Position numbers and translations under genes: made by a program | Shown here: in pieces, positions 13,965-62,442 of the stretch | How positions within the stretch are numbered: position 1 is the stretch's first letter | Layout: the number at the start of each line of letters is the position of its first letter | Notes under the pieces: generated by a model | Databases searched by the model: none | Told to the model about the DNA's origin: nothing | Seen by the model: only the letters and a program-made list of their open reading frames with translations | Source: Phellopilus nigrolimitatus | Taxonomy: Eukaryota; Basidiomycota; Agaricomycetes; Hymenochaetales; Hymenochaetaceae | Assembly (NCBI GenBank): GCA_021029095.1 | Contig: JAJOHG010000120.1 | Span: 21,769-85,768 of the forward strand | Length of the DNA: 64,000 bases | Direction: 5' to 3'

Positions 13965-14218
13965 GGTCACTTATTATAATTGCACCAGTACCAAACAGTA
14001 CAGTATTACGTCACATGCACATCCCGGGTTACCTAAAGTACCTGGGCCACCAGGCTCGCCAGCTATGCCGGTGCAAGGCTTCCCGGCATGTCCGGCAGAC
14101 CCTGGGCTTATCCTAAAATGGTCAGGTATTGCTGTGTGGGCAGCAGAATGATTACAAATACTTTAAGAGTGCGTAAGATTATTTTTAAACCCCTCACTTA
14201 CGCATAAAAGTTTATTGA

Positions 14219-14370
14219 GCGGGCCGCGCATATTGCACCGCTTTCCCGCCTCGCCGCTCACCGTCGCCCGCCCTCCCGCCCGCTGTTGCTGATGTCGGGC
14301 TTTTTTTTTGCTTTTTTTTTGTTACAGAAAATATTTATTGTTTCTATTATAGAAGCTAGCGTAATTATTT
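14219..14370 (+). repeat. GC-rich/poly(T) motif, copy 2
   Basis: Contains CGCTCACCGTCGCCCGCC, GATGTCGGGC and T tracts, as at 290-430. An inverted, looser copy is at 17,735-17,890, so the pair could be long inverted ends around 14.2-17.9 kb. Confidence 0.35.
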
Positions 14371-15760
14371 AAAAGGGAAGATAGTGTGTGCATAAAACGA
14401 ATTGGGGGAAAAGAGAAGAAAGAAAATGAATTAGAAAAAGGCCGAGCGCGATACACGACCGACGCGCTCACCGTAAGAAGGTGCGGACGAGCGAAACGCG
14501 AAACGAAGCGGCGGCGTCTGTGCACGCGACACGCGACGCAGAGAGGGGGCAGTGGCATCTGGGGACACAATAAACCCTGTTCGCGCATGTGCACAATCAG
14601 TGGTGCTTGCGGTGCATGCAGAATGCTCTTGCGCGGGTAGCGAGGCAAGCGCGGCAGACGAAGCGTCTTCGGGTGATGGAATGAGACAGAGAAGCGGATG
14701 TCGGAGCACGAAGGATGTCGCACGACGAGAGGAGGGCCGCGCGATCGTAGAAGCAAGAGAAGGGCCGCGCGATCATCGAAGCGAGGCGAGCTCGGCAGAC
14801 GAAGTGGATCCGGTCGGTGGAACGAGACAGAGTAGCGAACCTTGCGAGCATGATGGACGCGGGTCGTTCGTGCGGTCCAGAATAACGGACCCTGCGAGCG
14901 CGATGGGCGCGCGCGTTCGTGTGGTCCAGAGTAGCGAGCGCGATGGGCGCGCGCTTCCAGGTGGTCCAGGGTAGCGAACCTTGCGAGTGCGGTGGGAGGC
15001 CAGCCGTCGCATGCATGAGAATGGGGGCCCGGCCGTCGCACGCGCGCAAGACGGTCCAGCTGGTGCACGCGCGCGAGACGGTCCAGCTGGCACACGCGCG
15101 CGAGACCCAGCCGTCACACGCACGCGAGGCGGCCCAGCCGTTGCACGCATGCGAATGGGAGCCGCGTGGTGCGCGCGCGGCCCGCGCGCGACACGCCTGC
15201 GCAAAAAACAGTGGAGAGGGAGAGAGGGCGGGGGAAGAAGGGGGCGAGAGTGTGGAGTCAGGCTGCACGAACCGAGGAAGCTGCTGTACCTGGTTCTGGA
15301 AAGGGTAGTTATACATGGGCGGGGCCATCGCGCATGCAGATACAGGGTTGCTTACTCGCAAGAGGTCGGGACCCTGGGCCCGTACGGGGACATCAGTGTT
15401 GACGGCGGGGATGCGGGAACGGCAACATGGGCCGTCAGCACGACGTGGCCCACTTATGACGCGATCCAACCCCGAAAAAGCACTAAAAAGCAATTTTAAT
15501 GAGATTAGATACAAAAGCAAAGTTTTTCGGAGCACTTACCTGCTGCTGTACGTCCTCAGTGGTGTCGAGGACGTCGTGGACGACGATGAAGAGCAAAGTC
15601 GAACCGCGTCCTCTCATTGGGCACGCGCGGCTCGGCAACCTCCGAAGCTGCATTCAAGCAGCTTTCGGACGACTGTTTTTGATTTATTTAATTTGCAATT
15701 GCTGTTCGATAGGTCTGAAAGTTTGTATATAGTTTCATAGTGCATATGGGTACATCCTCA
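14371..15760. other. GC-rich low-complexity DNA
   Basis: Rich in CGCGCG and GGTCCAG. Between about 15,040 and 15,120 there are roughly three copies of a 27-bp unit (ACGCGCGCGAGACGGTCCAG..). Long open frames here (e.g. on the minus strand) are arginine/serine-rich artefacts of the composition. No gene is supported. Confidence 0.5.
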
Positions 15761-16680
15761 AAAATATTTAGCCTTCCGATCATCGTGGATGGTGTGGTAT
15801 AAAAGAAACGAGTACTGTAAAACCGAGGTTTTTGGACAAAACCTCACAAAATATTCTAGAGAGAGATTAGCTGAACCAAATCTTCCGATTTCTTCAGGAA
15901 GAAATACAATAGTATGATAGAAAGTATTTACGGCGTTTGATCTGTGTTGCGATTGCCAGGTGTATGTCATTTGACTTTTGGTACTCGAGAATGAGCAGTT
16001 GCTCATGTATTCTCGTGCAGATCTCTGGTGCAACCTGATGCTTCTCAAGTCTTTTGTTTCCTCATCACCTTCTTCCCACTAAAGCTCAAAACTAATACCT
16101 GTAATACCTTTAATACATAGTGAATATACTATTATGAGATTACTAGATTTTTCTGAGCTCTATGACAGTATTAAATCAGCAAACTTGCCTGTACCCTGTT
16201 CCCCAGACAGTTTCTTTCATATATCAGTCTCTAGGCCATCTCAGAAGCTCAAAATTTGCAAGATGCTTAATAAGGTATGAGTAATGTTATGTACAAAGTC
16301 TTGTGTCCATTGGGAGAGAATTAGAGGTTGCAGATAGAAAACCACATTAGCTAGGAAACACACATAAAGCACTTTAACAACAGCTTGGGGAGTGTCCCCA
16401 TAGATAATACATCAAGTAATGAGTATATTAGATGTGATCCTTGGTAATTTCTGTCTTCCTGATGCCTATATGACCTCCAGAGTGCACGGAATACTCAAAA
16501 TACAGAGAAATGTCGAGTTTGTACTACTATTTGGCATTTATCTTTGTCTATCATTTTGTACAGTGCTTGAAATTTTATAGGCTAATTAATTTGTATATAC
16601 TACTATTTACCATAATTTAGTTTTAGAGATAATGGGGCCAATTGTTTTGTTTCCGAGCATATTGCATTATTTTTCTCTGT
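15761..16680. other. AT-rich, CpG-poor stretch without genes
   Basis: The composition resembles 1,940-2,990. No protein similarity was recognised. Confidence 0.4.
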
Positions 16681-16983
16681 GCCACAGGTTCGGCATGTGC
16701 TCGGCATGCCAGATTTGGAGCGCAAATCTGTCCTAATTTGGTAGGATGGGTGACGCGTCATCACCGTGTCTTTTCTCTTGCTCGTCGTCGTTCCCGACAA
16801 TCTGGGCTTTTTCTTACCTGCCGACAGCCCTGCGGCGCCCCCCTCGCACAGTCGGAATGCATGGGCACCCGAAACTGACGGCACGGATGTCCTGGCACGC
16901 ACGTGCACTCAACGGCGACAAAGCTCCGTGCTGGCACGCGCAAAGGCGGCGCCATCTTCGAGAGGTCCGCGTGCACCGGCTGC

Positions 16984-17491
16984 CGTCACCAACTGGGATG
17001 ACATGGAGAAGATCTGGCATCACGTTCTCAGCGATTCAGCTCAACAGGTCCGATGCGTCGCTCGACGATGACAAAATCCGGCTCTCGCGTGCATTCAACG
17101 ACGACAAAGCGCTGCGCGAGCACGCGCTTAGCGACAACAGGCGACAGTGCCGGTGTGCACTTGCTCATATCCCCCCTTTTCCGTGACGCCTTCAAGAGGC
17201 TCGCGTGTGCCAGCTGCTGCCACCGGTCGCGGTGAGGCAGAGAAGATCTGGCATCACACGTTCTACAGTGACCCCACCTACTCGCTGCCTTTAGCGCGGC
17301 CGGCGATCCCCCAACTCCGGCGTCTCGTTTGCGCTGCGCGCTGACTTGTCTCGCTGGTAGAGGCAACCCGCCTGCGCACACCCAGCCGCAGCGCTCGACG
17401 CGCGCGTCGTCCATTCGGCTCACCCGTACGCAACCCGTGGCATGCTGCTCAACCCGAAGGCGAACAGAGAGAAAATGCACGCTGCGATGCC
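16984..17491 (+). pseudogene. ACT1: Actin gene pieces, partly duplicated in tandem
   Basis: Three short matches occur in actin order. AVTNWDDMEKIWHH (16,984) is the invariant actin segment at residues 76-88. AEKIWHHTFYSD (17,237) is a second copy of the same segment that includes the following HTFYxE part. LLNPKANREKM (about 17,447) is actin residues 109-118. Similar 240-bp contexts around the first two show a tandem duplication, with degraded sequence between. Actin is the filament subunit; here only about 40 codons survive. It lies inside the KDZ-end-bounded element. Confidence 0.72.
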
Positions 17492-17734
17492 ACGAGCGGA
17501 GGGGGGGCGCTAGTGGGGTGGGGGATAGGATAGTATGTCTGTATGTCGCAACGCTGCGCTCGAGCGCGCGTGTGCGACGTGGAACGTGTCGCGGCGGCGG
17601 GTACTCTGCGCGAGACGGTCGCACACCGTCACACGGACCGCCGCACGGACGCGGCACGTGGACGCAGCACGCGGCGTCGTCGAGGCCTCGTGGCGATCCT
17701 CGCGCTCTCGGCGCGCGCGTGTTCTGCGAGGTAT

Positions 17735-17890
17735 AGCTAATAATATTACTTTATTTTTCGTACATAATACAAAAAAATTATGTAAGTGAAAATGTGATGA
17801 ACAAAAAAAAAAAAGGCAATGGGTGCAGCGTCGGGCTGATTAGTAAGAAGGCGGGGGTCGGGTGGCAGTGAGCACAGAAGCCGAGGGCGG
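17735..17890 (-). repeat. GC-rich/poly(T) motif, inverted copy
   Basis: On the minus strand a GC-rich part with GCTCACTGCCACCCG is followed by a T tract and an AT-rich part ending TATTATTAGCT. It resembles the copies at 290-430 and 14,219-14,370, but the match is loose. Confidence 0.28.
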
Positions 17891-17959
17891 AGCGCACATC
17901 AACGGCACATTATATAACAATAATGACAAATTCTACCCAAAATAGGAGGGGTTCCGGCC

Positions 17960-18614
17960 CCTGTAATTACATTATTTAAAAACAGCTCAGATAAGTTGTA
18001 CAAATTAGTGTATGATTTTGAAAAAAGGTATATACTACTTTGAATATAGCCTGAGCTGGTTCTACAAAACCATGCTATTATTTAAAAACAGCACAGACAG
18101 GTTATACAAATCCGAGCCTTTGCTTGAAAATAGACCTGTATGATTTTGACAAAAGGTATACACTATTTTCAATATAGCCTGAGCCAGTTCTACAAGACCA
18201 TGCTATTATTTGAAAACAGACCTGTATGATTTTGAAAACAGGTATATACTGTTTTGAATATAGTCTGAGCTGATTCTAGAAGATCACACCATTGTTTGAA
18301 AACAAATCTGTATGATTTTGACAAAAGGTATATACTATTCTGAATATAGCCTGAGCTGATTCTAAAAGACCATGCTAAGTTTATAAACAAAGCTACACCA
18401 CTTTTACAATATACAATATGCTCACAATATATGCATGCAAATTTCTAGAACTCGCACTATGCAAGTTTAAAAGAGAACACACATTTTATAAAAACCCATG
18501 TTTGAATTGTGTTAAACTATGCTAGATATGATATACAAAAAGTACAGGAATAACGACAACAGTATTTACACACCAAATGCCTAGGAATTCTTATAATTAT
18601 AGTAATGACTGCCC
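17960..18614. repeat. Repeat R2, right end of KDZ element, copy a
   Basis: Contains two to three units of an 86-bp tandem repeat (TATTTGAAAACAGACCTGTA...) and then the shared tail AACTCGCACTATGCAAGTTT .. CAAATGCCTAGGAATTCTT .. GTAATGACTGCCC. Homologous to 53,041-54,049. Confidence 0.88.
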
Positions 18615-39540: not shown

Positions 39541-41097
39541 AACGACCCACGCTACAGTCCACATTTCTCGAATGAAGACAGAATACAATCTCGCACTGAC
39601 AATCTTCCGCGCGAACAGATGCAGCAAGGAACGCATACCACGGCCCAAGTCTTCCACGATACCGACCTCTCCTGCCCCGCCAATTTGTTTAGACCTTTCG
39701 GACACTAGCTTGTCTGTGTGCGCATGGTCGGAACCATGCGCTGTCGATCACTAGTGCCCCGTCTTTCAACTCTTCCCTCAAGGTGCGCACTGCGCCTCTG
39801 CTTTGACCGGCCGCGGGCATCGCGGCGGGATCGCGTCTTTCCGGCCGCGGATTCTGGAAGCACGTGGATATTGGTCGCGTCGAAGGTGAGTGCGGAGGGA
39901 CATTATGTGCAAGTTCGTCATTCTTACTCGGTTTCAGGCACATCGACTTACTCGTCTGCAAAACAGCCTACAGTCTATTAGATAACAGATAGCTTATCGT
40001 CCACGCAAGGCTATCGCGTACGTGTGTTCGCCCGCTGAAAATCTTACGCATGAGCAGGCGCAGCAAGGAACGTGAATAGTTCCGACCTATCCTCGTCACA
40101 GCCGACGTTTCCGTACGAAAGCTCTCTCCAATTTCTCCATATAGTTTGGACGCTAGCTTGCACTGTCTGCATTCTCTGGATGTGCATCGTCATAATGGCA
40201 CGCTGTTAATTGCTGCTTTGTCTTTCCAACTCCTCCCTCGCAATGCACATTGTGCATCGGGCTCCACGGGTGGCGAACATGGCGTCGTGACTATACTTCC
40301 GCAGATTCTGGTTGCCCATTTATCTCGAAGCTTGTGGATGTTGGTCGCGCCGAAGCTAGGTAAGGAGGGACATTGTGCGTAAATCTGTATCACGCCGAGT
40401 TCAAAACACAGCTTCCGACGGGGATGTGCCGAGCGACGCACGAGATGCACGCTCTCCCGGCTTTCATTTAGATCATGAGAAGAGCCATAAATTTAAATGG
40501 TAAATGGAATGCGAGCTCGGTCACTCGGCGAGTGAAATTTCAATACGATTTCATAGTCCTCATCGTGTTTCTGCTAAATTGAACAATCTAATTTCTTTTT
40601 ATTTTCAGTTATCCTGCTTTCACGCCTTCTGCTAGGCAACTTAAATGGCTTAGTCGGTGGACCATACACCTTCAAATGTCGTCCGCCCCTAACTCGCCAC
40701 TATAAGACGTAAAGCGAATCAGGAGGCGGAGAGCGAACACCGTTTTCTAGGAATCGGTATATGGCTGAGTGAGCATAAACGCGAACGTACAGGTCTGGGC
40801 GAAGAGGGATATTTAAGTGTCCGTCATGAATGAACTTCCGTAACACATCGATCCCTCAAGAAAAAAGTCTCCTTGGCTTCCTTCTTCCTCCAGCCACTCG
40901 CGCGAAAGAGATATCTAATCAGAAGAGAACATGGATCCTTCATCAGCCGTCATATAAACCTCTTCATCCGACTTGTTTCCTTCAGTATCCTCCTCCCAAG
41001 TCTTGTCCGACTCGTTTCCTTCAGTACCACTTCCCCGAGCCTCTTCATCCGACTCGCTTCCTTCACTGTCTCCCTGCACTTCCTCTACGAATGCATC
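39541..41097. repeat. Segmental duplication D2, left copy
   Basis: 40,020-41,097 is homologous in the same orientation to 60,950-62,087 (landmarks: TTCCGCAGATTCTGG.., GAACTTCCGTAACACATCG, CGTCATATAAACCTCTT). 39,570-40,010 is a third, partial copy of the first part of the unit. It contains the 3' half of the gene split by the KDZ element. Confidence 0.7.
40915..41097 (-). pseudogene. C-terminal exon of a conserved unknown gene, split by the KDZ insertion
   Basis: The minus frame from 41,097 reads DAFVEEVQGDSEGSESDEEA, TEGNESDKTWEEDTEGN and VYMTADEGSMFSSD-stop (40,915). It is a highly acidic tail. Its N-terminal part is at 54,050-54,690 on the far side of the KDZ element, and the paralog at 61,904-62,442 has both parts joined. 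No family name is known to me. Confidence 0.75.
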
Positions 41098-41660
41098 ACT
41101 ACTAATTACTCTAATTATATATAAAACACACACGTATTGCCTGTAAATACTGTTGTCTTGAATGGTATGCTATTTAACAAAAACGTCTAGCATCGTTTAA
41201 AAACCTATATAGCAAATTATCAAAAATGTATAGGCAGTTCTAGTAGTAGGACTGAATTGGGATTTTGATGACAGCCTACGCATTTTGTACAATGCTCTAG
41301 TGTTTTTCACAAAAACTAACTGAAAATGTTTAATGAGCTACAGGAAATCTTAAAACTCGGATACATATTATCGGAGCTGCATATGCTCTTGTATATACTG
41401 GGCTATTCAAATAATCAAATGGAAAGGATAATTATTAATAATAGCTTAAGCATTTTGTACAATGCTCTAGCATTTTTCACAAAAATTATCTGAAAATGTC
41501 TAATGAGCTACAGGACATCTTAAAACTCGGATACATATTATCAGAGCTGCATATGCTGTCTTATATACTGGGCTATACAGATAATCAAACAGAAAGGATA
41601 GCTGTTAAAAAGCAATAGAGCTGCATTAAGAATATCCTAATGTCGTTTTCATAAAGACCA
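41097..41660. repeat. Repeat R1, left end of the KDZ element, copy b
   Basis: Homologous to 13,571-13,964 but with an extra internal duplication: the part around GCATTTTGTACAATGCTCTA appears at about 41,279 and again at 41,449. 41,661-42,019 is non-coding with a short CACGC/CACAC-rich patch. Confidence 0.88.
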
Positions 41661-42019
41661 TGGCACCGGTAGAGCAGTAGCAGCATTGTACTTGGTAATT
41701 AGTTCACACGCTTGTAAACGCGTCTTCACGCACCACACATCACGCATCGCGCGTGATCGCGTCTCCACGCGTCACACGTCTCCATACGTCACGCACAATC
41801 TCAAAATTCACTCATCTCGTCGTACTGCCCATTCCAATGTATGGTAGATCAGACATTAACTCGATTAAGCACGAAGGAATACTCTACGCAACAGGACTTC
41901 AAAAAACTAACAGCAGAGATTAATCAGAAAATTGTGCGAATCAGTATAGAAAGTCAATGACTAGAGCACTAGACAGCTACTCGGTTCCTCAGTCTGCTCA
42001 AATCAAAGGTCAATTAGTT

Positions 42020-44788
42020 TCATGTAATTGGAACAAGCGTCGGAAGTGCAACGTACCGCAGCGCACGCTGTGAGGTGGGGGGGGCATTCTTACCGGCCGA
42101 ACCAGGCTTCGCTCTCTTACTGTTCCAAAGAATGTAAGTATGCAGATCTGACTTGTGAAAATGAGAGTACTTACGATACGGCGTTCCCGCCAGAACTGCC
42201 TTCTTCACGAGCACGTTTTTGAGAGTAATCTGGCACGGAGTTGAGGCTCACGAGAACCCATTTAACATCATTGACGGTTGCCGCAAGACCATCATCATCT
42301 GCGGCCTTCGGATGTGTCCCCCACATTGCAAGAGCCAACACAACGAGGTAAAGGCCCTCAGGGCCAGCAAATCTGATATCTTCGAAGCCTTCATTCTTTC
42401 GGTCGATGCGTGAGAGGTTTTCGCCGCGGGCACGGCGCCAGGCTGGTTGCAAGCCATCCCACCATCTATCTACGCTGTCCGCGAACTTCGTTAGGCTAGT
42501 AATCGACCAGGCGCCTAGATCTGCGCCTGACTTCAGATACTTGTTCAAATCCGTAGGCCGACCCTTCGTTGACAGTTTCGTGCTCAACTGTAAGAAATAA
42601 GCAAATGAGATAGCATCTAAAGATAATACGGCACACTTACATCAATAGGACGAGCAGATTCTTCAAACATTGCGAACTCTTCGACGAGCTCGTTCCACTC
42701 ACTACAAACATCGATGGAGCGCAAATACCTCAAAGGTGACTCGAACCAGGGCACCGCAGGTGCAGTAGAAGACACGTGTCGTCCTGGTGCCCCGGAAACA
42801 GCAGCACCAGAAGAGTGCGAGGATGCCGCTGTTGGCCCTGTCGGCGGTGTGCCAGAGGAATCAGGGGTTGTCGGAAGCGTCAAAGTGTTCGCGCCGGACT
42901 CAGATGTCGACGTGTTCGTGCCGGACTCAGACGTCGGGGTCGGTAAGGCTGGGCTTGATTGAGTTGGCAAGTTGCCGCCTCGCCTTACATAGTAAATTAG
43001 TTAGCACACACGCAGACCTCAGATCGCAAAAAGAACTTACCCATCGCTAGCACTGCGACTACTTCCCCCTGACACCGCACGTCTGCTTGTCTTCGACGAA
43101 GACGCGGATGCCTTCAAATACGCCTCCTGAGCTCTCTTCTCGAAATCAGGACCAGGACCGTCCACTGAACTGATCTCCTTGAAGAACTCATTCGCGAGAT
43201 CCTGGTCGTGATCGAACACGGCGAATGCCAGCCTGATGCGCTCGACATGCTCGTCCCGTTTCTTCTCAGCGTCAGTACGGCGCGGTTGCGGAGATCTCTT
43301 CTTTGTCCTCGTCACACTGCTCTTCGCGTTGCTCTTTGTGTTGCTCTTTGCGTTGCTCTTTGCCTGGTGGGATTTCTTCGATCGTGAGCTCCCACCATTA
43401 CTGCTGTCGTCATCGTCGGTAGAACTCGAGTCGTCGTCGTCGTCGTCGTCACCGTGGGAGTTGCCAGGGTCGCTAGAGTCGCCAGAGTCGTCGGAGGAGT
43501 CGATTACGGGAGCAGATTTGATCTTCTTCTGCTTCTGCCTCGTCTTCGACGAGGATTGGGACCGGGACGTACTGTTGACAGTATTGAACGCACTTTCGTC
43601 CAAGATCTCATCTGGCCCTCCTGTGAGCGACCACTCTTTCCGAACATTCGGAGCTGGTCAGCGAGTCTGTAAGCTAGCTAGATTACATTGCAACAGAATA
43701 CGCACGATAGACGTATGTCAAGTGTCTCTTGAATGAGCCGACGACGTTCTTCGAAAAACATTCGTCCGTGTCAGTCCATGTCTGCTTCAGCTCGGGTGTC
43801 TCGCCACGAGTCATTCTGTTATAGAGCATCCATGAGCTTGTTTAGATGCAAGGCAAAAGTAAAACATACAGAAACGCGTCCAAGTTCCCTCCTTTGTTCG
43901 GACTAGGTCCTCCATAGAAGACCGCGATTGTCCATCCAGTCTGCTCGGCGAAGTTGTCTAGCACCGCCTCGAGAGCATCTCGCGCGCCTGCGATCGCACT
44001 TTATCGTACAAAATGTCAGAAGTAAAACTAGAGAGCACGATAAGGCGAACTCACTTTGCGTACGCATGAAGTTCCTGCTTAGCGGGGTCCTCGCTGGCAA
44101 TGGATTCGTCATCGCTTTCACTGTCGCTGTCACCGTCACCCCCTTCCTTATCAGGAAGGATTTTCTCAAGCCTTCCAGAATTGTAGTCCTCCATCGTCTT
44201 CTTGACACGATTCTTCATAGTTGCGGGTTCAGTCGCATAGGTCTCCTCGGCGCGGCGTTTCGAGAAAGCCAGCGTGCTCTCCGGCACAGCGGCAGGAAAG
44301 TCCATCGCAAGCTGCTCCCTGTACGCTTTGTAAGCTCCCTTGTTCTGAGCTCGCAACTTCACCTGGTTCAGCTTCATGTACGCTTGGATCTCGTTGACAT
44401 GACCCCTCCTTTTCTTCTTTGCTAGATTGATGGTGTTCTTTCGACTGGTCCTCGCCAGATGCGGTGTCGTGCGAGCTCGGTTGTATAGCCAGCTCTTAAT
44501 TCGCTGCAATTTTACGTAAGTTTGTTAACTGATCAACAACGAAAATAAGTCAGATTAACGAACTTTCGTAAGCTTGCTAACATTCTTCTGGTGCGCTGCT
44601 TTGCTGTCGCCACCGGCCGCCTGTACCTGTGCCTCCGTGGGAAGCTCAAGCGGAAATGCTTGAAGAAACCTCTCGAACGTCGGAGGGAGGAAGCTAGACG
44701 TCCGACTCTCTTTCTGAGCCTGTACGAACTTCGGAAGGAGTTTCTTGAGGAGCTTCCTCTGCTTTGGCGTCGTCCAGCGTTTTCCCAT
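42020..44788 (-). CDS. Unknown multi-exon gene carried by the KDZ element
   Basis: Start MGKRWTTPKQRKLLKKLLPK (44,788). A spliced intron then gives KLTKRIKSWLYNRARTTPHL, followed by AFSKRRAEETYATEPATMKN, an acidic stretch, GWTIAVFYGGPSPNKGGNLD, ELKQTWTDTDECFSKNVVGS, a Ser/Asp/Lys-rich linker (SRSQSSSKTRQKQKK .. GDDDDDDDSSSTDDDDSS), a Ser/Thr/Pro linker, and a globular C-terminal part (LNKYLKSGADLGAWS, WWDGLQPAWRRAR, GLYLVVLALAMWGTHP). After a last intron (gtaagt) it ends at 42,020. About 700-750 residues and seven or more exons, with no stop seen in the joined frames. It resembles nuclear DNA-associated proteins in composition only; I recognise no catalytic motif. Divergently placed from the RNase H1-N gene. 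Confidence 0.6.
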
Positions 44789-45898
44789 GAGTGTTGGCTG
44801 AGTACAAATAGATTCCGTGCGGTTGGGATGAGCTGATCGAAGCTGGACAGGCAAGGAGGTGCCACTCAACTCAAAAAACGACATACTTATTATACTCCGG
44901 TGCATGGCTAAAGTGACATTGCACGAAGCAATGTTACACGATCGCGATCTCCGCGTCTCAAATTCTCAAAATAAATTTGAAACGGTGTACAAGCTCCAAT
45001 ATGCGACGATTATGCGACTGTCATGACCATCCTTACGAGCCATGGATGAAATTTCCGCCACAACGGGCTGCATTTAGTCAACCGTATTCGCGAAATACCC
45101 AGGAGTGCACCCTTTTTTCATGGAGATGATCTTCTGTCGAGCATCTTCTTCGCTGCTGAAGCCGCTTCTTTTGGCGGTTGGTGGCCGGCAGTCTCACAAT
45201 GTTTTTAGCCAACCGGTCGGATAATATCGCACGCATTGCTGCGTGTACCATCTTGGTCTACTAAAGTTTTCAGAGTCAGGCCTGCTCTTCATAGAATGCC
45301 CACCAGTAATCCAAGAACTTAATTTCTGTTTCATCTTCGGAGGTGTCTATGTGAGTAATCCAAAGACACTTTTAACGATGTGCACATCTGACACTCAGAT
45401 CTCCGCCGTACATTTATGTAAAATCAGCGCGCATTTCTCTGTTATACCAGCGAGCGAAGCGACGGTGAGCTGCGCAGCGCTTATGCAGGCCGAAGTGGTC
45501 GCTTAAACTGTGTAGCAACACACATTTCTCCGCCGTGCTTCGCGACGCCACCGCAAGAAGCAATGGTGGCGGGACATTGTGGGACGGCCGATCAGGGTGA
45601 GTTACAAATTGCTTATGCAAGCTGAAGAAGTCGCTTAGAATGTGCAGGTGCACGCCTATTTTTACTTCGCGGCGCCACCGCAAGAAGCGACCATGAACTA
45701 TGAAGTGCGAATGCACTCTGAAGCATTCGTTTGTGCTTCTCTTACTCTCAACTTAAATAGCGGCCCCCTTCACCCCGTTCCCTTATCACCCTATCTCTCT
45801 CCCCAACACCAGCCCCCCACATCTAACGTGAGTCTCTCCCCCCCTTCCCCCTCCCTTTCATACTGCTTTTATTTGATTCATACTGTTTTGCAGATCTA
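44789..45898. promoter_or_regulatory. Divergent intergenic region between the two cargo genes
   Basis: Holds two diverged tandem copies (about 45,460-45,585 and 45,610-45,735) sharing GCTTATGCA..CGAAG..GTCGCTTA and GCCACCGCAAGAAGC. Closer to the plus gene a CT-rich tract (45,770-45,890) contains a likely 5'-UTR intron (donor gtgagt at 45,829, acceptor ttttgcag at 45,893). This is typical of a transcribed fungal promoter. Confidence 0.4.
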
Positions 45899-46974
45899 AT
45901 GCAAGGCAACTCCGGTCACAACATCAGTGGAAGGGGCTCGTCTTCGACCTCGGGTCGTCGCACGCAACCTCCCGCCAGACGACCAAGCGGGGAGGTGCGA
46001 GGTACGTTTGTTCATGCTAATGTAATTTAATGCTGCACTAATATTTGTCTTAGAGTATCTTAGGACTGTTCGCGACGCTATGCGCAGAGCCGATGCGCCT
46101 CCGGCTGTTCGAACCCTCCAGAACATGCGTGACCTTCAGATGTCCCTGGAGTCATTGGACCTCGGTGACCGTTCCCCACGCTCGGTTACGGACACGTCAG
46201 GCGATCGTCTTCGCCGATCCACGCCCGCCAATAGCGAGCGATCTTCGCCAGAAGCAGCCCGCGAACCCGCTGCCGCTTCGGCTGTGGGTGACGCCGGCTT
46301 TCCGACGCGCTCGATGCCGGGTGCCTCCCCTATCTCCGGTTCGGAAGCTGAAGTTATCGACTTAGAAAGCGACAGCGAAGGCCAGAAGAACATCACCTCA
46401 TCCGAGGCCGCGCCTGTTGGACCGGCTGGTTTCGGCGCCGGTCATGGCGAGCTCCAGTACGCAATAGATAGTTACTTTATATTTCAAATATTCACGTGTT
46501 CCTGCTGTAGAGAAATGGCCCCTCACGGACAACAGGCGCATCCTGCTGATTACGTCCTGCCGGCAAGCACGGCGTACATGTACCGTCCGGCGACTATAGC
46601 CGATCTGCGGGGCGTCGATATCCTGGAACTGCCTCCCTCGCCCAGCGCGCCGCAGGGCGAGGAATGTATGTGCCCTCTCACTCACAGCGCCGCAAACCCG
46701 ATTTTTCGTATTGGCACGCAGAGGAAACCCGGCTGCTATGTCGTCTTCAGAGGTAGGAGCGTCGGCATTTTTGCGGATTGGTAACTGTTTGTTTTGTTTT
46801 GTTTTTTACGTTCTACATTTTAAATATTTCTTTTTTAGGGATATAGTGCAAAAACAGGTTTCCGGGGTGTCGGAAAATTGTCAAGTTGGCTTTAAGGCAT
46901 ACGCAGACGCCTACGCGGCCCTCAGAGCTGCGTTCCTCGCTGGGCGTCTGTTGGTGTACCGCCAGGGCGAATAG
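45899..46974 (+). CDS. RNase H1 N-terminal (viroplasmin-like) domain protein
   Basis: ATG at 45,899 begins a Ser/Arg/Gly-rich exon (donor gtacgt at 46,004). The next exon runs EYLRTVRDAMRRADAPPAVR, then a Ser/Pro/acidic linker with EAEVIDLESDSEG. After another likely intron near 46,460-46,510 comes MAPHGQQAHPADYVLPASTA. The last intron (gtaact at 46,782, ttttag at 46,838) joins KPGCYVVFRGRSVGIFADW to DIVQKQVSGVSENCQVGFKA, YADAYAALRAAF and the stop at 46,972. That join recreates the YVVFxGRxxGIFxxWxxVxxQVxGxxxxxxxGFxxxxxA pattern of the RNase H1 N-terminal domain, which binds RNA/DNA hybrids or dsRNA. No RNase H catalytic domain follows. Exon borders other than the last are approximate. Confidence 0.72.
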
Positions 46975-47164
46975 GCTTTTTTTGGCGACTGTTGCACATG
47001 TATTTTTACTGTTCGGGATTTGACTCGAACCTGCTTAACCTTTCATCTCAACGACGCTTGCCGTCAGTCCAAAGTCTTATTTTCTTCGCAGAATGACCGC
47101 GCTTTGTTTTGTCATAGGTGTAAATAGTGTTGTTTGTGTTATTAATGAAAAATACATGTTGCCT

Positions 47165-47472
47165 GCACTTGATGAATGCGCCTCTCCGACATGCTTGCCT
47201 CTGCTCTTCCAGAAGAGTCCCCTGTATTCGACGAGTCCCTCAACTCCAACCACATTGCAAACAACGCGCAGAAGGACAAGGCGGCCGAGGCTGACGTCAA
47301 AGCTGCATGGGAGACAGAGGCTGACGCCGTCGACCACTCGATCCTCATCCTGCCCGGTGTGAAGGACATGATTGAGTGTATGCCTGACGGGCGGTATGCT
47401 GTTGCTACCGGTGGTGCCAAGACTTGCGGTTTTTTATTTCTATGCAGCTACAAGGCTATCGAGCAGAGTTGA
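47165..47472 (+). pseudogene. HAD-family sugar-phosphatase fragment
   Basis: The frame with MLASALPEESPVFDESLNSN, AAWETEADAVDHSILILPGV, KDMIECMPDGRYAVATGGAK and then an unrelated tail resembles the middle part of fungal HAD phosphatases of the glycerol/2-deoxyglucose-phosphate type (..LPGVxxLIExLPxxRWAIATSxxK). The family's SxTK-type motif reads GGAK. Both ends and the catalytic DxDGT are missing. It is a stray host fragment within the KDZ element. Confidence 0.45.
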
Positions 47473-48565
47473 GCCTTTGTTTGTAGCACGAGTGTTTGAG
47501 TTCTGACGTCTGAAAAGCCCGCGTCATTGAGCCGAACAGCTGAGCAAAGTACAACGATGGACGAACTCCTAGCAATGTCACAAAGAACAAATGCGCAGGG
47601 CTGCAGGAGAATAAAAGAAAAGAAAAGAAAGAAAGAAAGAAAAGAAAAGAAGCCAGACAATCAAGAGTTATGGAAATGTAGTCCTAGTAAAATATGTGTT
47701 GAAATGCGTAGTGAGTGAGAGAAAAGGCGGAGCAAAGCAAGACAGAATTGGCATCGAACAGAAAAGTCGATCACGCAGACAAGAAATCTGTTTGATGACC
47801 TCAATCAGCATAAGCGGGTCAATTGTTGCCAGGAAGTTTGTCGAGACATTCAGTCTCGCGGGGAAGGGTGTACGAGGGTAGAAGTTGGAAACGCGATATG
47901 AACGATCCTGTGTGCATTCAAACAGCGATCTACGCCTCGAAAGACCTACAGTGGGCGAGGGGCGAAAAAAGGCAGAGATTAGCTAGAGACAAGGTGAGAA
48001 TATTAGATGCAATGCACCTGTCCTGCATGAAAGCATGTACATCTTCGTCAAGCATGTCGGCTGGGAGCACAAATCCAAGTCGCAAGGACGTCTAGTTGAC
48101 CAGCAAGACGATCACTCTTGAAGTTTCAAAAGTGTCCAACATTACGATGCAAAGACCAAATGTTAGTTGAACTACGTCGACAATGTGAAAGCCAAGATTC
48201 AGTCGGACAGTATTGACGATGTAAGATCTCGAGCTAACCTGCAAGATAATTGATCATTCCCGAGATGCTCGGATAACATCGACAGCATGAAAGGTAAGAT
48301 TCACGACTTAGAACAGTCTCCAATAAGCAATCTTTTCTACAGCACAAGCTACAGGTTCTTCAAGCTAGCAGTATACTCACACTTGTCTCTGGACTCCTTT
48401 CGTTCAAAACGAATTTAATGCAGTTGCCGACTTTCAGTGGCTGCCCATGCCACATGTTTCTTTTTTGGGATACATTTTCTTTATTTGGTAGTCGGCACTC
48501 TCGCTAAGTACATCTCGGCAATAAGTTGTCTTCAGTACACGAACCACAACAACAACCAGCACAAA
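47473..48565. other. Spacer without recognised genes
   Basis: Has an AAAGAAAGAAAG simple run (47,612-47,650). A 90-codon open frame (47,823-48,095) has no recognised family. The part before 48,566 is presumably the transposase promoter. Confidence 0.35.
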
Positions 48566-51500
48566 ATGGCGAAAGAGGGCAGCTCAACATCGCGGAGAAG
48601 TCGCCACAAGGTCATTGACCTATTCGCGGATCCACCGACGAAGCGAAAGCGAAAGCGCCAACGGGCGGAAGTTGCGGCCTCTGACGACGACGATGTCCGA
48701 GCGTTCGAAGTACACAGGACAAAGAGTGGACGTCGTGGACACCGAGAGTTACTTGATGCTGTAATGCCCGAGTATTCTTTACCTCCGCCAAAAGATCCCT
48801 CGTTTCCCTCGCCAGATGATTCATCCTCTTCGACACCTCGTTCCGTGGACAACCCTGTTGATCCTGACCCTATGATGGATGGAATGGCCGCACCCGACGA
48901 GTCAGATGCTAACAGACGCCCAGGCGTGCCCCCGAGGCGAGCTCGCTACCACACTAAGAGTCACGGAAAAGGAACAATCAATGTATGTCGCGAATTCGCG
49001 TTACACTGCTGCATTGCATCTGACATAATTGTAGAATAAATTGCAGCGATGGTTGCCTCTACGCCAAACCTATCTTGACGAGCTCATCCGGTGCGACGGT
49101 CGGCAGGAGGCTGCGGATGTGGAGATGTGCTGGGATTGCGGCGCCCAAACGGGACAGTATAGGTGTGCAGATTGTTTTGGAAGTGGTCTGTATTGCCATA
49201 CGTGCATTGTTGTGTCGCACGATAAGCTCCCGTTCCATCGAGTAGAGGTGAGTCAGGTCCGACAGTCAAGGATCAAGTGGTCGCTTAGTGATGTATTTTG
49301 CAGGTATGGACTGGCGAATTTTTTGATAAAATATCACTTCAGAATCTTGGTCTGCGGATGCAGCTTGGTCATAGCGGACACGCTTGTGCCGCTCCTCTTC
49401 CCTCCCACAAAAAATTTATTGTCATGGAAGTCAACGGCTTTCATCTCGTCAACATTGACTTCTGTGGGTGCGGACTCGGTGCACCACCTTATGTACAACT
49501 TCTACGTGCCAGATTATTTCCTGCGTCGCCGGATCGTCCTCGCACAGCGTTCACATTCAATGTGCTCGCGATGTTTCACGAGCTGACCCTGCAAGGAAAG
49601 ACGAATGCCTATGACTTCTATCGCACTATTCTTAGGGAGACTGACAACAGTAAACCTCCAACCACTGTAAGTCACTAAAGCTTTTCTTTAGGCGTTGTAC
49701 TGACCCTTCCTGCTTAGTTCAAGTGCAATGAATTTGCATTTGTTGTTCGTTTATGGCGTCATTTGACGATGCTGAAGCGAGCTGGCCGCGGACATGCACC
49801 TGGCGGAGCAGACGCGACTGGGCTGGGGGAGCTGGCAGTTGTCTGTCCTGCGTGTCCGCAGCCTGGGCGAAACCTTCCGGATGGATGGGAAAACGCTCCT
49901 GAAGACCAACGGTACGTGTCCCGCCTTCCTACCTGGGATCCCTTCTCATATAGTTACGATAGATGGTTATACGGCATGTCGATTGCAGTAGATGCGAATT
50001 TTAGATTAAAATCGAAGGAACGCGGTTTCAAAGATATTGAACTCGCGCCGGGCTGGGCATACTTTGTAGAGGAGAACGCGTATCAAGCTGTGGTTGCTCA
50101 GTTTGCTGACTCGGATGCGGAGGTAAAATTAGTATCGTTAACTTGATAGAGACAGTTTCGGATTTGCTGATCTGTCTTATTGAGACTAATACATGCCGCT
50201 CACACCACAATGCTATACTGGCTGCAAACTTACGTAGCACAAAGAACTACAAGGCAAGTGGGGCGGGTGCAACTGTATGTGGCCGCCACTCGGTCGTTCT
50301 TTGCGTTGCTGACCTCCAGAAGGGCGAGAAGTATGTATTTTCTTGCTTCTGGTTTGCGCAACTTGCTTACTGATAATTCTAGATACGTTAGTATGGATTA
50401 CGTGGTCCTATCCGCTCTGTGCAAAACGCAGGTTCGCGACCTGCTAATATCGTATGATATTGCAGTGTCAGTGGTCAAAGAAGTTGCACGAGCGCATCCC
50501 CCGATACCCAGACAGATTGAGGCTCGACACTACAAATGTCAACATAAGAACAGCCGTTCCGAAATTCCATCTTCCCGCACACGGCCAGGCGTGTCAGTCG
50601 CGTTTTTCCCTCAATTTCTACCCAAGGTCGGTCGCACATATGGTGAGGGAGTGGAGTCTGAGTGGGCACACATCAATGGTACGGCACCGAGTTCGAAGGA
50701 GATGGCACCTGCAGTGCGACACGAGACCCTCAATGATCATTGGTCGGGATGGAACTGGGCGAAGACCGTTGGATTTGGTATGGTTAACTTATTCTTTCAC
50801 GAGTCCCTTCCTTGCTGATGCTCGATGATAAGGTCCATACTTCTTGCGAAAACTCGCTGAGGCCCTAGAATGGTACACGAGGTCGAAAAAAAATCTTGAT
50901 TCTTTGTCTTCAACTGTGCCGGTGGAGACAATAGCAAAGTGGGACTCTATGATCGTGGCGTGGCTCGTGGATAATAGTGAGCCTGACCCATACGCTGAAC
51001 CAGCAATCGGTACGTCGCGAAGGGCTTCAAGAAAAACACTCTTACAAGTTCTTACAGAAATGACTCTCAATGACGTTCGACTCGAATTTATGAAGGAAGA
51101 TGCGGAGGAAGCACAACGTGGGCAATTATCTGCGCACGCTCTGACTGAGCGATCAGTTTCTTATAGTGGGACTGGAAATTGAAGAGAAGCAGTGAGTTGC
51201 GTGCCATTAATTACTACTCACTTACTGACAATATGTTATTTAATCAACAGGCGGTCATCGGGGATTACGGGTAAAGCGAAAGCTGCGCGCACGTCCGCAC
51301 TCGCTGCAAATGCCCAGCATGCACGGAACACACTGTATCGTCCGATAACGCAGTGGCGCCACGTACAGGACATCTACATGGTTGGCGTAGCGACTTGTCG
51401 CTCACAGGGTCTTTTACCGCACCAGGAGGTTGATGAAACATCGGGGTCGTTTACAGTTGACATTGACCAGAAGGGCAACCGTGTCGAACCCGAAAATATC

Positions 51501-52949
51501 CCCCTTCTTCTCCCTTCGGCCGTGCCGCACATTGCTCGTCGAGAGCTTTTGATCATGGAATCAAGACTCCGATACGCTCAGGCTGACGACGCCCTTTCTA
51601 CGATCCGCCGCCATTGTAGGATTATTACCGGACTGCGCGTGTTCAAGACCCTCAATATCAGCGGCTCGGGAAATAAGCCCAATACGCGTGCCCACACGCT
51701 CTTTCAGCGCTTTCATCTCAAAATAGACCAAGCCGCAAAACGATATCGCGCGGCGCGTGCGGCGCTTCTCACCATATGCGAGATTATCCCTACACTTGAT
51801 CCACAGAAAGTGTGGGCCGCGCGGTTTCAAGACCTGAAGAAAGACGATATCCGTGGGCCTGATCGAGACGAAGAAATTGAGCCGAGCGAGGGTCGCGTAG
51901 CTCCATCTTGGATATGGTTGGTTCCGAATGCCAATACCAACAAGGGTGGTTCCCTTGGAGAGTTTGGCGAGAGCGTCCGCGTCGAATGGGCAAAAGCAAA
52001 GGCTAGAACGGAGCGCTGGAAGGAGGAGATCGTGCTCCTGGGCGAGGAGATGCGCCGTGTGCTGGCTTTCCTCGACTGGCGGGCCTCGCAGTGGCGTGAA
52101 AAGATAGGAGTGAATGACGTTGGCGCTTCCGCGGCGCTTCAGAGTGGGCTCGATGCTTACGCAGCAAAGCAAGCCGCTATTTTTTTTCGACTATCTGCAC
52201 ATTTTGCCTCAGTATGGGTGCCCCGCCTCTGTGCTATGGATGATCCGCCGATCTGGGTGACCGACTTCAACTTCAACGTGATTGCGGATGAGAGCCGCTT
52301 TGAAAGCGTACTCAACGCCCTGGAAGAGCGCGATGGCGACGAGATACTGGCCGTTACATCATCTGACACTGGGGGACAGACGGGTAAGGCTATATGTGGC
52401 AGAGATGTCGAGGGGGGGGCTGGAGGATTATATTCGGGTGAGGGGAACATTGAGGAGGGGCGGCGCGGTGACGTTTGCTGTGGCGTGCAAGGATGCACGC
52501 AGGACAGCACGCTGTCCGAGCCGTCCTCGGACATGTTGCGCGACAGTTCCGGGGGTGGCCTGAAGCTTTCGCGAGGTACAGGGAGTGGAGGAGGGATTTA
52601 TTCAAATGGGGGGAATGAGGATGGGGCAATGCACGGCAACGTTGACTGTGTCGCGCGAGGATGCGCGCAGGACAGAGTGGATAGTTCGCTGCCCTCAGAT
52701 CTATTGTGCGACAGTTCTGGGGGTGACCTGGAGCTTTCGCGAGGTACAGACGGTGACGGAATGATTCATTTTAGCAAGAGGGATGAATTTTCGCTAAGTG
52801 CTGGTTATACAGTGACAAACGATGACTGTGAAATCGAAGATGACGATGTCTTCGATTTTGCAGAATATGTGGACCCTGAGTCCTTCCAGGATGAGATTGA
52901 CGATTTCGAGTACTATCCTCTGCTTGATGGGACCATAGATTATATGTAA
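48566..52949 (+). CDS. CxC2-KDZ transposase, with apparent frameshifts
   Basis: Nine exons read by eye: 48,566-48,982; 49,047-49,247; 49,304-49,666; 49,718-49,911; 49,954-50,122; 50,185-50,330; 50,383-50,777; 50,833-51,191; 51,251-52,949. Order: basic nuclear N-terminus (KRKRKRQRAE), CxC2 finger (MCWDCGAQTGQYRCADCFG .. YCHTCIVVSH), GHACAAPLPSHKKFIVMEVN, WRHLTMLKRAGRGHAPGGAD, CPACPQPGRNLPDGW, MSIAVDANFRLKSKERG, YVSMDYVVLSAL, the family's SYDIACQWSKKL, KFHLPAHGQAC, SEWAHINGTAPSSKEM, and a C-terminal domain with PSWIWLV. One extra base near 50,469 puts DIA..CQW out of frame until about 50,625, and another shift lies near 51,145. KDZ transposases have an RNase H-like core. Confidence 0.88.
52475..52760 (+). 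repeat. Internal duplication in the transposase C-terminal tail
   Basis: Two diverged in-frame units of about 180 bp share GCGCAGGACAG, TTGTGCGACAGTTC and CTTTCGCGAGGTACAG, giving repeated CAQD, DLLxDSSGG and LSRGTxGxG in the glycine/serine-rich tail. Confidence 0.65.
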
Positions 52950-53040
52950 TTCAGTCTGCTGTACCCGTGTAAGTAAAATGTTTTCCAGTCCGAGTACTCA
53001 TTCATCAATGTTGCTTTTGGCTAGTGTACTTAAAAGTCTA

Positions 53041-54049
53041 GATCTTCCTAAATTCAATTGCCCCTGTTTGAAAATTGACCTGTATGATTCCGACAAAAGG
53101 TATATACTGTTTTGAATATAACCTGAACTGGTTTCACAAGACCAAGCAATTATTTGAAAACGGACCTGTATGATTCCGACAAAAGGTATACACTATTTTG
53201 AATACAGCCTAAGCTAGTTTCACAAGACCATGCAATTATTTGAAAACGGACCTGTATGATTCCGACAAAAGGTATACACTATTCTGAATATAGCCTAAGC
53301 TAGTTCTAGAAGACCATGCAATTATTTGAAAACGGACCTGTATGATTTCGACAAAAGGTGTATACTATTTTGAATACAGCCTAAGCTAGTTCTAGAGGAC
53401 CAAGCAATTATTTGAAAACAGACCTGTATGATTTCGACAAAAGGTATATACTATTTTGAATACAGCCTAAGCTAGTTTCACAAGACCATGCAATTATTTG
53501 AAAACGGACCTGTATGATTCCGACAAAAGGTATACACTATTCTGAATATAGCCTGAGTCAATTCTACAACTCTGCCTGCCGTTTAAATTCTGACATGATA
53601 ATATTCAAAATATTATATTCTCGTTTGACAACTGCTTTTCATTGTTTCACAAAGCGGCATAGAAAAACTTAAATATTCATATGTGATTCTTACAATCCAC
53701 TAATTTATATTGAAACTTCAGGTATATCAAATAACAATTCATGTGTTGTATTCTCAGAACGAATTTAGTTTTTCTACACTTACACATAAGAGTTTTCAAA
53801 AATGCGAGCTAAGATTATAAACAAAGCTATACCATTATTAAAATCTGCAATGTACTCACAATATATGCATGCAAATTTCTAGAACTCGCACTATGCAAGT
53901 TTCAAAAAAGAACACACCATTTATAAAAACTCGTGTTTGAATTGTGTTAAACTACGCTAGATATGTTATACAAAAAGTACAGGAATAAAGACAACAGTAT
54001 CTACACACCAAATGCCTAGGAATTCTTGTAATTATAGTAATCACTGCCC
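53041..54049. repeat. Repeat R2, right end of the KDZ element, with 86-bp minisatellite
   Basis: Starts of TATTTGAAAA at 53,151, 53,237, 53,323, 53,409 and 53,495 show an exact 86-bp period. About six units span 53,065-53,575, each with CCTGTATGATTCCGACAAAA and GGTATACACTATT. The tail 53,820-54,049 matches 18,380-18,614. Subterminal arrays of this kind often bind transposase. Confidence 0.88.
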
Positions 54050-54690
54050 AATGCATCCGGGGGTTCTCTACTTGATCTGCACTGATGACAGGAAAAATCC
54101 GCTGTCCTTGAGAAGAACGGTCCCCTCGGATTTGTAAATGGCCACCAGGAGAACGATCCTGTCGGATCCAAGCCTTCAGTTCCGCACCCAATGCAGCCCC
54201 GAGTCCTTGCGTACGCGGCCGGTTCGTAGTGCAGGACATATACAGCGAACGACACAGGGGTCAGCAACCGACAACGACGGGTTTTCCAGTTCCGCACTTC
54301 CAAACGCAAGCTCTCGGGCTTCATGTCCTCTGTGACTGCGCAATAACAATACTCATAAGGCTCCCTAAAATAAGCATTTGCAAGATAAGCGGGCTCCCCA
54401 TTCGCAGTGCGTCCGGCGACTATCGGATGGTGACCCACGCTAGAGAATGCTTCCCCGCGCTGTACGCGCAGGAGGAGCACGGATTGTGAATTGATTTCTA
54501 GCTCATCTTTTGTTTCGCTTGCACAGTTTTCAGCACAGAACTCCTAAAAGAATCACGAGAGATTTGATTTAGTTTAGGAGTCGACGATCAAATAGAATCA
54601 GAGGGCTCACGCAGAGATGTTCTAGTTTGCCATCTGCATCACAATTTCGAGAAAACCATTGTGGAAAAACTTCATTCACTACAAAGTTTC
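54050..54690 (-). pseudogene. N-terminal part of the conserved unknown gene, split by the KDZ insertion
   Basis: Minus strand: QWFSRNCDADGKLEHLC, an intron at about 54,610-54,550 (gtgagc..ttttag), EFCAENCASETKDELEINSQ, then FSSVGHHPIVAGRTANGEP, MKPESLRLEVRNWKTRRCRL, FAVYVLHYEPAAYARTRG, FSCHQCRSSREPPDALG, cut at the KDZ right end. Cysteine pairs (CEFCxxNC, CHQC) suggest metal binding. The acidic C-terminus is at 40,915-41,097. The paralog at 61,904-62,442 is about 70-80 % similar by eye. Confidence 0.7.
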
Positions 54691-60639: not shown

Positions 60640-62087
60640 GGCCACGAAGGCTAGGTAATGCGCGGACTTGGATGCAATAACGGGCACTCAACTCTCAAGT
60701 CACCGGTACTGTCTTTTGCCCGCTTTCACACTGACCTCGATCACGTCGTTTGCTCTCACTCAGGCTCCGCGTCATCCTGTATCGGCAAAATGCGTGGGTC
60801 CTGGAGATGCGGAGACGGAAGACAGGTGAGGTTGGTATGATCTGTATTGTGCGAGTTCGTCGTCCTCGTCTTTCTCATTCTCAAGCATGTTGACATGCTC
60901 ACCTGTAAAGCAGCCTACAGCTTATTAGATAACGGCAACATAAAATGGCTCCCCGTCCACGCAAGGCTGCGTTCACGCGCTGACGCGCGAGCAGACGCAG
61001 CAAGGAACGCGCATCTTTCATTTGCGAAAGCAGTCAGGCTCGAGTATAAGCAACGCTGCGAGCTTGATTTGAGGTATGTATGAAGGGGGTGGCCCTCGGT
61101 AAGGCAACCAGTCTCCTTTATTGTTTTGTGGCGATCGATGTCATCATGATGCTAGAGATCTTCAAATGCCTCCCACCCGACCCTTCAACTTCTCCATATC
61201 ATTCGGCCTGCACTGTCTGCGCTCACTGTCTGCGCACCGTCGGAATGACGCGCTGACGATTACTTATTTGTCTTTCCAACTCATCCCTCACAAATAGACA
61301 CTGTACGTCGAGCTCGACGGGCAGCGGACCTTGCGACTTCCCTTCCGCAGATTCTGGTACGCCCGTTTTCCCCGAAGCGCGTGGATGTTGGCCGCACCGA
61401 AGATAAATACGGAAAGACATTGCATATTGAACTCTATCACGTCGAGTTCAAAAAGCAGCCTCCGACGGGGGCACGTCGAGCGCAAGCCGCCCGATGGACG
61501 AGATGCACGGTCTTCCAGCTTTTATTTAAATCGCGAGAAGAGCCACAAGTTTCAATGGAATGGGTTCTCTGTCACTCGACAAGTGATATTTCAGTACGAT
61601 TCACTATTCCTTCTCCTTGTGAGCAGTGTCATCTACATAATCACGAAGAACATAGTGTCTGACAGGATACACGATTCGACTCTTTCCTAGGAATCGGTAG
61701 ATGGACGAGTAAGCATAAGCGCGAACGCGCACAGGTCAGGGGCGGAGCGCATACATAAAGGAACTGCACATTTATCTGCGTGTACGTTCAGCGGAGAATA
61801 TATAAGTGTCCGTCACGAATGAACTTCCGTAACACATCGCTCCTTGAAGAAAAAAGTCCCTTCAGCTTCTTTCGTCCTCCGCCGACTCGTCCGCAAGAGA
61901 AATCTAGTCAGAAGAAAGCAAGGATCCTTCATCAGCCGTCATATAAACCTCTTTATCCGAGTCGCTTCCTTCAGTATCCTCCTTCCAAGTCTTGTCCGAC
62001 TCGTTTCCTTCAGTATCACTTCCCCGAGCCTCTTCATCCGACTCGCTTCCTTCACTGTCTTCCTGCACCCTCCTCTACGAATGCATC
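60640..62087. repeat. Segmental duplication D2, right copy
   Basis: Homologous to 39,270-41,097 over much of its length. It continues without interruption through the aatgcatc site (62,080-62,087) into the gene part that on the left copy lies beyond the KDZ element. Confidence 0.7.
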
Positions 62088-62442
62088 CGGGGTTTCTCTA
62101 CGTGATTTGCACTGATGACATTTACAATCTGTTGGCCTCCAGGAGAACGGTCCCGTCGGATCCAAGCCTTCAGCTGCGCACTTGTACAGTTTCCGGTACC
62201 AGCCCTGGGTCATAACGTACGCATTCGGTTCGTAGCGCAGGACATATACGGCAAACGACTCAGGGGTTCGCATCCGACAACGATCGGTTTCTTCATCCCA
62301 CACTTCCAAACGCAAGCTCTCGGGCTTCATGCCCTCTGTGACTGCGCAAGCACAATCGACATAATCCCCCCTAAATGAAGCTTCTGCAAGATAAGCAAGC
62401 TCCCCATTCGCAGTGCGTCCGGCGACTATCGGATGGTGACTC
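61904..62442 (-). pseudogene. Paralog of the KDZ-split gene, uninterrupted by KDZ
   Basis: The minus strand from the LTR at 62,442 reads HHPIVAGRTANGELAYLAEA, MKPESLRLEVWDEETDRCRM, FAVYVLRYEPNAYVMTQG, CKCHQCKSRRETPDAFVEE. One extra G near 62,070 shifts the frame, and the acidic tail (SEGSESDEEARGSDTEGN .. TADEGSLLSSD) ends at 61,904. The 5' part is removed by insertion of the LTR at 62,443. It proves the pre-insertion sequence of the KDZ target. The function is unknown. Confidence 0.75.

Follow-up and report, generated by a model that had tools for sequence, protein, structure and literature searches.

KDZ elements are described as common in mushrooms, with ends that are understudied (PMC12730594, PMC12810828, PMC8290104). 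For the families Kyakuja-1_LB and Kyakuja-2_LB of Laccaria bicolor, the published description lists a 7-bp duplication, CA..TG termini, no inverted repeats and a TET/JBP gene, and the duplications of Zisupton are given there as 8 bp (PMC12730594). KDZ1, KDZ2 and KDZ3 of Cryptococcus neoformans are reported as complete elements of about 9–11 kb with observed insertions, terminal inverted repeats (TIRs) of 139–241 bp (241 bp in KDZ1), duplications of 8 bp (KDZ1) or 4–8 bp (KDZ2 and KDZ3), and a CxC1 domain (PMC12810828). The KDZ and Plavaka elements of Marasmius oreades are reported to be bounded by target duplications, and their TIR motif has been characterised according to the authors (PMC8290104). 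Here, we analysed a stretch of 64,000 nucleotides (the window), which is part of contig C25 (85,768 bp) in the 56.4-Mb, 635-contig assembly of the wood-decay fungus Phellopilus nigrolimitatus (Hymenochaetales). Positions 41,097–54,049 of the window very probably constitute a single and complete Kyakuja-like member of the KDZ superfamily, a cut-and-paste DNA transposon that was inserted in a host gene with duplication of 7 bp of the target.

Results

Ends of the element and target-site duplication

The element, its duplications, the interrupted gene and its insertion-free counterpart are located in the window as follows.

41,097–54,049, + strand: whole KDZ element, 12,953 bp, CACTACTAATTACT...AGTAATCACTGCCC (flank repeats, relative on contig C113, ends common to short copies)
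41,090–41,096, no strand: left target-site duplication AATGCAT (flank comparison)
54,050–54,056, no strand: right target-site duplication AATGCAT (flank comparison)
54,057–54,543, − strand: interrupted host gene, 5′ part (alignment to paralog)
40,915–41,089, − strand: interrupted host gene, 3′ part (alignment to paralog)
61,819–62,440, − strand: insertion-free paralog of the interrupted gene (empty site), about 8 kb from the element

The octamer aatgcatc was located at 41,090–41,097 and 54,050–54,057, and singly, without an insert, in the paralog, which continues through AATGCATCCGG. The flanking copies and the empty site had both been claimed in an initial annotation made from the sequence alone, and both were found where it had placed them. 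With gaps set aside, 243 of 265 aligned bases of the left flank and 297 of 344 of the right flank were identical to the paralog. No Pfam family was found for the interrupted gene. Within 62,050–62,090, beside the insertion point, the paralog has one base more than the interrupted gene, and the reading frame is altered there.

Six elements with both ends were compared, namely the long element of the window, its relative on C113, and four short copies, three on contigs C69, C19 and C9 and one at 13,571–18,614 of the window. The left end was placed at the C of CACTACTAATTACT, and the longest exact repeat adjoining both ends was then measured for each element. This repeat was 7 bp in five of the six (AATGCAT, AGGCCCA, CGAATAC, TCGTCGC and, on C113, GCGGAAG) and 1 bp in the short copy of the window. 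The left end reads CACTA in all six, and its leading C is therefore part of the element; the right end reads TGCCC or TGCTC. The eighth base inward agrees in one of the five duplication-bearing elements, the long element of the window, and differs in C69, C19, C9 and C113, which corresponds to the chance level; the base at the opposite edge agrees in two of the five (C69 and C113). The duplication is therefore 7 bp, the start of the element shifts from 41,098 to 41,097, and the eighth matching base at the long element is a coincidence. The initial annotation had read the duplication as 8 bp, compared it with that of Zisupton, and expected such repeats around other insertions. Exact repeats were indeed present in five of six elements, at 7 bp instead of 8 and with the 1-bp exception, and the comparison with Zisupton fails. 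Of the seven genomic sites that carry the exact 14-base left end, six are the two-ended elements.

The diverged relative on contig C113

The regions of gene A and of the transposase gene (gene C) had a good match at one other place in the genome, on C113. The relative begins CACTACTAATTACTAT and ends AATTACTGCTC, with GCGGAAG on each side, and carries the same three genes (A, B and C) in the same order and on the same strands between ends of the same type. Its blastn pieces are collinear and in the same orientation, covering 7,873 of the 12,953 bases at 59–72% identity, and over their outer 80 bases the right ends of the two share 49 of 72 aligned positions. Judged from the sequences, this diverged copy, with the same genes, order and terminal motifs and a duplication of its own, is the strongest support for a single unit, and it bears out the initial proposal that everything between the two ends belongs together.

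Some 23 kb of inserted DNA splits the relative itself.

C113, reverse complement of 85,001–135,000, positions 11,682–34,711 (loci L031–L035): nested insert in gene A intron 3

The insert, possibly a giant cargo-bearing Plavaka element, encodes a transposase of that group (PF18759, E 7.3e-56) as well as a TRIP12-like ubiquitin-ligase piece (E 1.8e-14). The public model P0001, the gene A relative on C113, extends from the gene A exons into this insert and is therefore a chimera. A structure prediction for P0001 with three exon rows gave a mean pLDDT of 37.5 and was not used.

Terminal and subterminal repeats

Both ends of the long element carry repeats.

41,097–41,176, + strand: left imperfect TIR, inner box about 41,127–41,186 (alignment)
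53,970–54,049, − strand: right imperfect TIR (alignment)
41,273–41,600, + strand: left subterminal direct repeat, 170 bp × 1.9
53,067–53,554, + strand: right subterminal tandem array, 86-bp unit × 5.7 with a weaker 43-bp period beneath

Over the outer 80 bases, the left and right ends agree at 51 of 78 aligned positions in the window element and at 61 of 78 in the C113 relative. The right-end tandem array recurs as a 43-bp unit × 29.5 on C113 and as an 86-bp unit × 3–5 in the short copies. In the inner boxes (bases 31–90, a stretch picked after the alignment had been viewed and to which the paired pattern is limited), the left and right boxes of one element matched each other with a score of 18 in the window and 30 on C113, neither of which was reached in 1000 shuffles; between the two elements, no box matched above shuffles (73, 205, 606 and 371 of 1000). 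The inner boxes look as if they had changed as pairs. Boxes and arrays are candidate binding sites of the transposase or a helper.

Genes of the element

The exon borders of the three genes are predictions, placed manually according to what is conserved in the window element and C113.

42,020–44,788, − strand: gene A, open frame of 793 aa in 8 exons with GT-AG introns, transcribed divergently
45,899–46,974, + strand: gene B, open frame of 303 aa in 4 exons; residues 245–285 match an RNase H1 N-terminal (Cauli_VI) domain
48,566–52,949, + strand: gene C, CxC2-containing KDZ transposase of about 10 exons, its frame broken at three points by a single base each

The frame breaks of gene C lie near 50.46, 50.62 and 51.15 kb, the first immediately after a YDIA stretch. 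Up to that break, the window gene matches profile positions 2–125 of KDZ (PF18758, E 2.4e-30), and the C113 transposase matches all 217 (positions 1–217, E 2.6e-64). The CxC2 domain (PF18803) was found in both (E 1.9e-39 in the window and E 1.9e-38 on C113). CxC1 matched the same stretch of window gene C at 29.2 bits, above the cut-off of 26.9 (E 1.1e-6), and fell below it on C113 (21.6 bits), CxC2 being far stronger on both. On C113, the transposase frame continues unbroken for 1,347 codons under a splice model, and its stop aligns with the end of window gene C. The features that define the KDZ superfamily were thus all found, namely the KDZ domain, a CxC cluster N-terminal to the transposase, and defined ends with a duplication (five of six elements). 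The Pfam matches and the end searches agree with the initial annotation of a complete KDZ element with CxC2 and both ends. A TET/JBP cargo was rejected, as no Pfam match of this kind was obtained in genes A and B, the N-terminal piece of gene C or 10 of the 54 listed reading frames, a scan that a very distant type would escape.

Gene A had no Pfam family above cut-off; in a homolog search that scored 7,990 candidates against it, only the C113 relative reached E ≤ 0.001. Gene A is frequently paired with KDZ in this genome. Searches that scored best candidates only, with matches grouped, gave 16 gene A places and 39 KDZ places, the window element being excluded from both counts. A KDZ match lies within 17 kb, a limit chosen after the distances had been seen, at 12 of the 16 gene A places and is divergent at 11, many of the 16 being related copies and hence not independent. 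A chance figure that assumed independence was given no weight for this reason. The count of 11 includes C555, where the nearest KDZ match is not divergent (which would give 10 of 16) and another, 7.0 kb off, is. C244 has a convergent KDZ match only, and no KDZ match shares the contig with gene A at C157, at C183 or at either of two C54 places. Places that combine KDZ with gene A include those on C64, C357, C611, C446, C625, C168, C9 and C555.

The RNase H1 N-terminal domain of gene B was detected by Pfam (E 3.8e-9). The public model of this gene, P0002, has 335 aa and a different start; it was the single protein retrieved with gene B at E ≤ 0.01 among 7,999 candidates. P0002 had no solved relative at E ≤ 0.1 and showed a weak NCBIfam ribonuclease H match far under the cut-off (22.2 vs 320 bits). 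The C113 copy of gene B loses its frame in exon 2. Among the best 120 of 416 homologs of the C113 transposase, one Coprinopsis cinerea protein combines CxC2 and KDZ with the RNase H1 N-terminal domain (E 1.9e-7) in a single chain, a fusion that could possibly reflect a wrong gene model. In the literature searched, no title or abstract was found that presents gene A or gene B as a KDZ partner.

The coding sequences of all three genes bear the mark of selection. Between the window and C113, dN/dS was 0.34/1.49 for exons 1–3 and 0.18/0.68 for exon 4 of gene A, 0.33/1.29 for exon 3 and 0.35/2.51 and 0.52/0.89 for other pieces of gene B, and 0.17/1.86, 0.12/2.0, 0.09/1.42 and 0.16/1.47 for four in-frame pieces of gene C (the fourth being the first 367 codons of its C-terminal piece), with dS near saturation and the ratios accordingly rough. 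A value for exon 7 of gene A, computed with one partner in the wrong frame, was discarded.

Captured host fragment

Between genes B and C, the long element carries a piece of a host gene family.

47,178–47,438, + strand: captured fragment from a host gene family of HAD-phosphatase type, about 0.26 kb, no match at the corresponding C113 place

The piece encoded at 47,176–47,472 had 57 matches in the genome including itself, the best other being 84% identical at the protein level. Two of the places matched lie in the left flank of the C113 element, outside it, and no match was found at the corresponding place inside. The captured piece itself had no Pfam match; the family is named after a HAD hydrolase match (E 3.0e-8) in a neighbouring piece of one genomic family member. 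Most simply, the fragment would have been acquired after the window and C113 lineages split; alternatively, it may have been lost from C113. The HAD-phosphatase-like family is greatly expanded, many of the 57 matches (a count that includes the captured fragment) standing in arrays on C113 and C607.

Short copies with the same ends

Genome searches with the first 603 bases of the element revealed four further left ends, and those with the last 470 bases revealed six further right ends. Four short elements have both, those on C69 (4,852 bp), C19 (5,064 bp) and C9 (5,238 bp) and the copy in the window.

13,571–18,614, + strand: short copy of 5,044 bp, ends as in the long element, without a KDZ match

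The expectation of the initial annotation that the left and right ends (R1 and R2) would be found together thus held for four other copies and failed for C67 and C622, where R2 occurs without R1. Both ends of the short copies are 91–99% identical to those of the long element and the insides differ, with no blastn match to the long element. None of the short copies appeared in the genome list of KDZ matches, nor did they convincingly resemble genes A–C; their longest ATG frames have 243–314 codons. Four frames of the window short copy were scanned, three of which had no Pfam match; the fourth, of low complexity, matched a ribosomal L23 N-terminal model (E 1.2e-14, 54.5 vs 27 bits), which we take as a putative composition effect. 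The short copies may thus be non-autonomous members of the family moved in trans. The window short copy has a TGGTAC motif at its left end, repeated some 10 bp past the right end. Elsewhere in the window, one set of tandem repeats is present in two copies 4,900 bp apart, at about 5,254–6,187 and 10,154–11,087, which suggests a tandem duplication of about 4.9 kb.

Discussion

Considering these results, we propose the following as the most likely scenario for the transposition of the long element. The CxC2-KDZ transposase encoded by gene C may recognise the inner box of each imperfect TIR together with the subterminal repeats of 43- or 86-bp period, cut at CACTA and TGC(C/T)C, and join the element to a target site cleaved with a 7-bp stagger. 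Genes A and B may be conserved helpers, A as the divergently transcribed partner and B as a protein with a domain of the nucleic-acid hybrid-binding type, and the 5-kb copies with the same ends would be mobilised in trans. A more specific and tentative version, to which we give rather less than an even chance, is a three-gene KDZ machine in which the end-recognition boxes have been switched as a pair between collinear elements with the 43-bp-period array kept, and in which gene A and the RNase H1 N-terminal domain protein are transposition cofactors, not passengers.

The ends of the long element might belong to a small non-autonomous 5-kb family, the KDZ genes being a separate transposon that landed in one copy, as could be imagined from the four 5-kb copies that carry the same ends without KDZ genes. 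However, C113 has the same three genes, in order and strand, between like ends with a separate 7-bp duplication, at 59–72% identity, and the insides of the 5-kb copies find no blastn match in the long element. Being contradicted by C113, a KDZ element nested in a small element was rejected, and we regard it as very improbable. It is just as hard to credit that the duplication is of the 8-bp Zisupton type with the eighth base mutated away in other copies. The eighth base does agree in the long element of the window, but it differs in C69, C19, C9 and C113, one in five being the chance level, and the CACTA left end of all six elements assigns that C to the element.

The element may also be complete with genes A and B as passive passengers that have no part in transposition; we consider this unlikely, though far from negligible. 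The sole relative of gene B in the genome is on C113, where its frame is broken, five of the 16 gene A places have no KDZ match standing divergently inside the 17-kb limit, and the captured host fragment shows that passengers occur. On the other hand, A and B are open in the window with dN/dS below 1 against C113, gene A stands divergently beside a KDZ match at 11 of 16 other places, and the Coprinopsis KDZ protein contains the gene B type of domain.

Several observations weigh against a single complete and mobile unit at 41,097–54,049. A second insertion of the exact long element was not found in the genome, and its unity therefore depends on the C113 relative, in which about 5.1 kb of the long element, including the last 560 bases, has no blastn match. 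Given the three frame breaks in its transposase, the window long copy is probably not autonomous now; since the 3.3 kb of coding sequence in genes A and B is free of breaks, this decay is likelier to be real than a product of poor assembly, an argument that falls short of proof. The short copy of the window has no recognisable target duplication, and the right ends on C67 and C622 stand without a left end in the stretches examined. With one mismatch allowed, the left-end pattern was not commoner than its reversed control (22 vs 58 sites), and therefore only the seven exact sites carry weight. Ends of this type were sought in the examined parts of four other KDZ places (C357, C154, C64 and C168) with no convincing match. 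The left ends of the window element and C113 agree at 58 of 76 positions over the outer 80 bases, as good as the window element's own two ends (51 of 78), because the outermost 20 bases or so are common to both, and the pairing of the inner boxes was seen in a stretch chosen afterwards. At E ≤ 0.01, gene B had a relative on C113 only and is therefore not a general KDZ partner in this genome.

The case offers exact ends, a corrected duplication, an empty site and a full-length diverged relative whose transposase is open. It further supplies satellite copies that would depend on this same machinery, and two genes that are candidate helpers; these are the components that a transposition assay requires. 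How a KDZ transposase recognises DNA can be tested directly through the paired divergence of the end boxes.

Compared with the described Kyakuja families, the element shares the 7-bp duplication, the CA start, the KDZ transposase and the occurrence in Agaricomycetes, whereas it ends in TGCCC or TGCTC, three bases past the TG of the published CA..TG, has imperfect inverted repeats where the Laccaria families are described as having none, and carries no TET/JBP gene recognised by Pfam in contrast to those families (PMC12730594). It is a KDZ member that may be called Kyakuja-like by duplication length, and it is placed outside Kyakuja as described because two terminal features differ (CA..TG and the lack of inverted repeats). 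With Zisupton it shares the KDZ superfamily and a complete element with inverted repeats. Unlike the 8 bp reported for Zisupton (PMC12730594), and expected likewise of Dileera, the duplication is 7 bp in all five duplication-bearing elements. Like KDZ1–3 of Cryptococcus, as reported, it is a complete element with TIRs and a KDZ transposase, but CxC2 is far stronger here where CxC1 is reported there, and the duplication here is 7 bp (PMC12810828). As described for the elements of Marasmius oreades, it is bounded by target duplications (PMC8290104).

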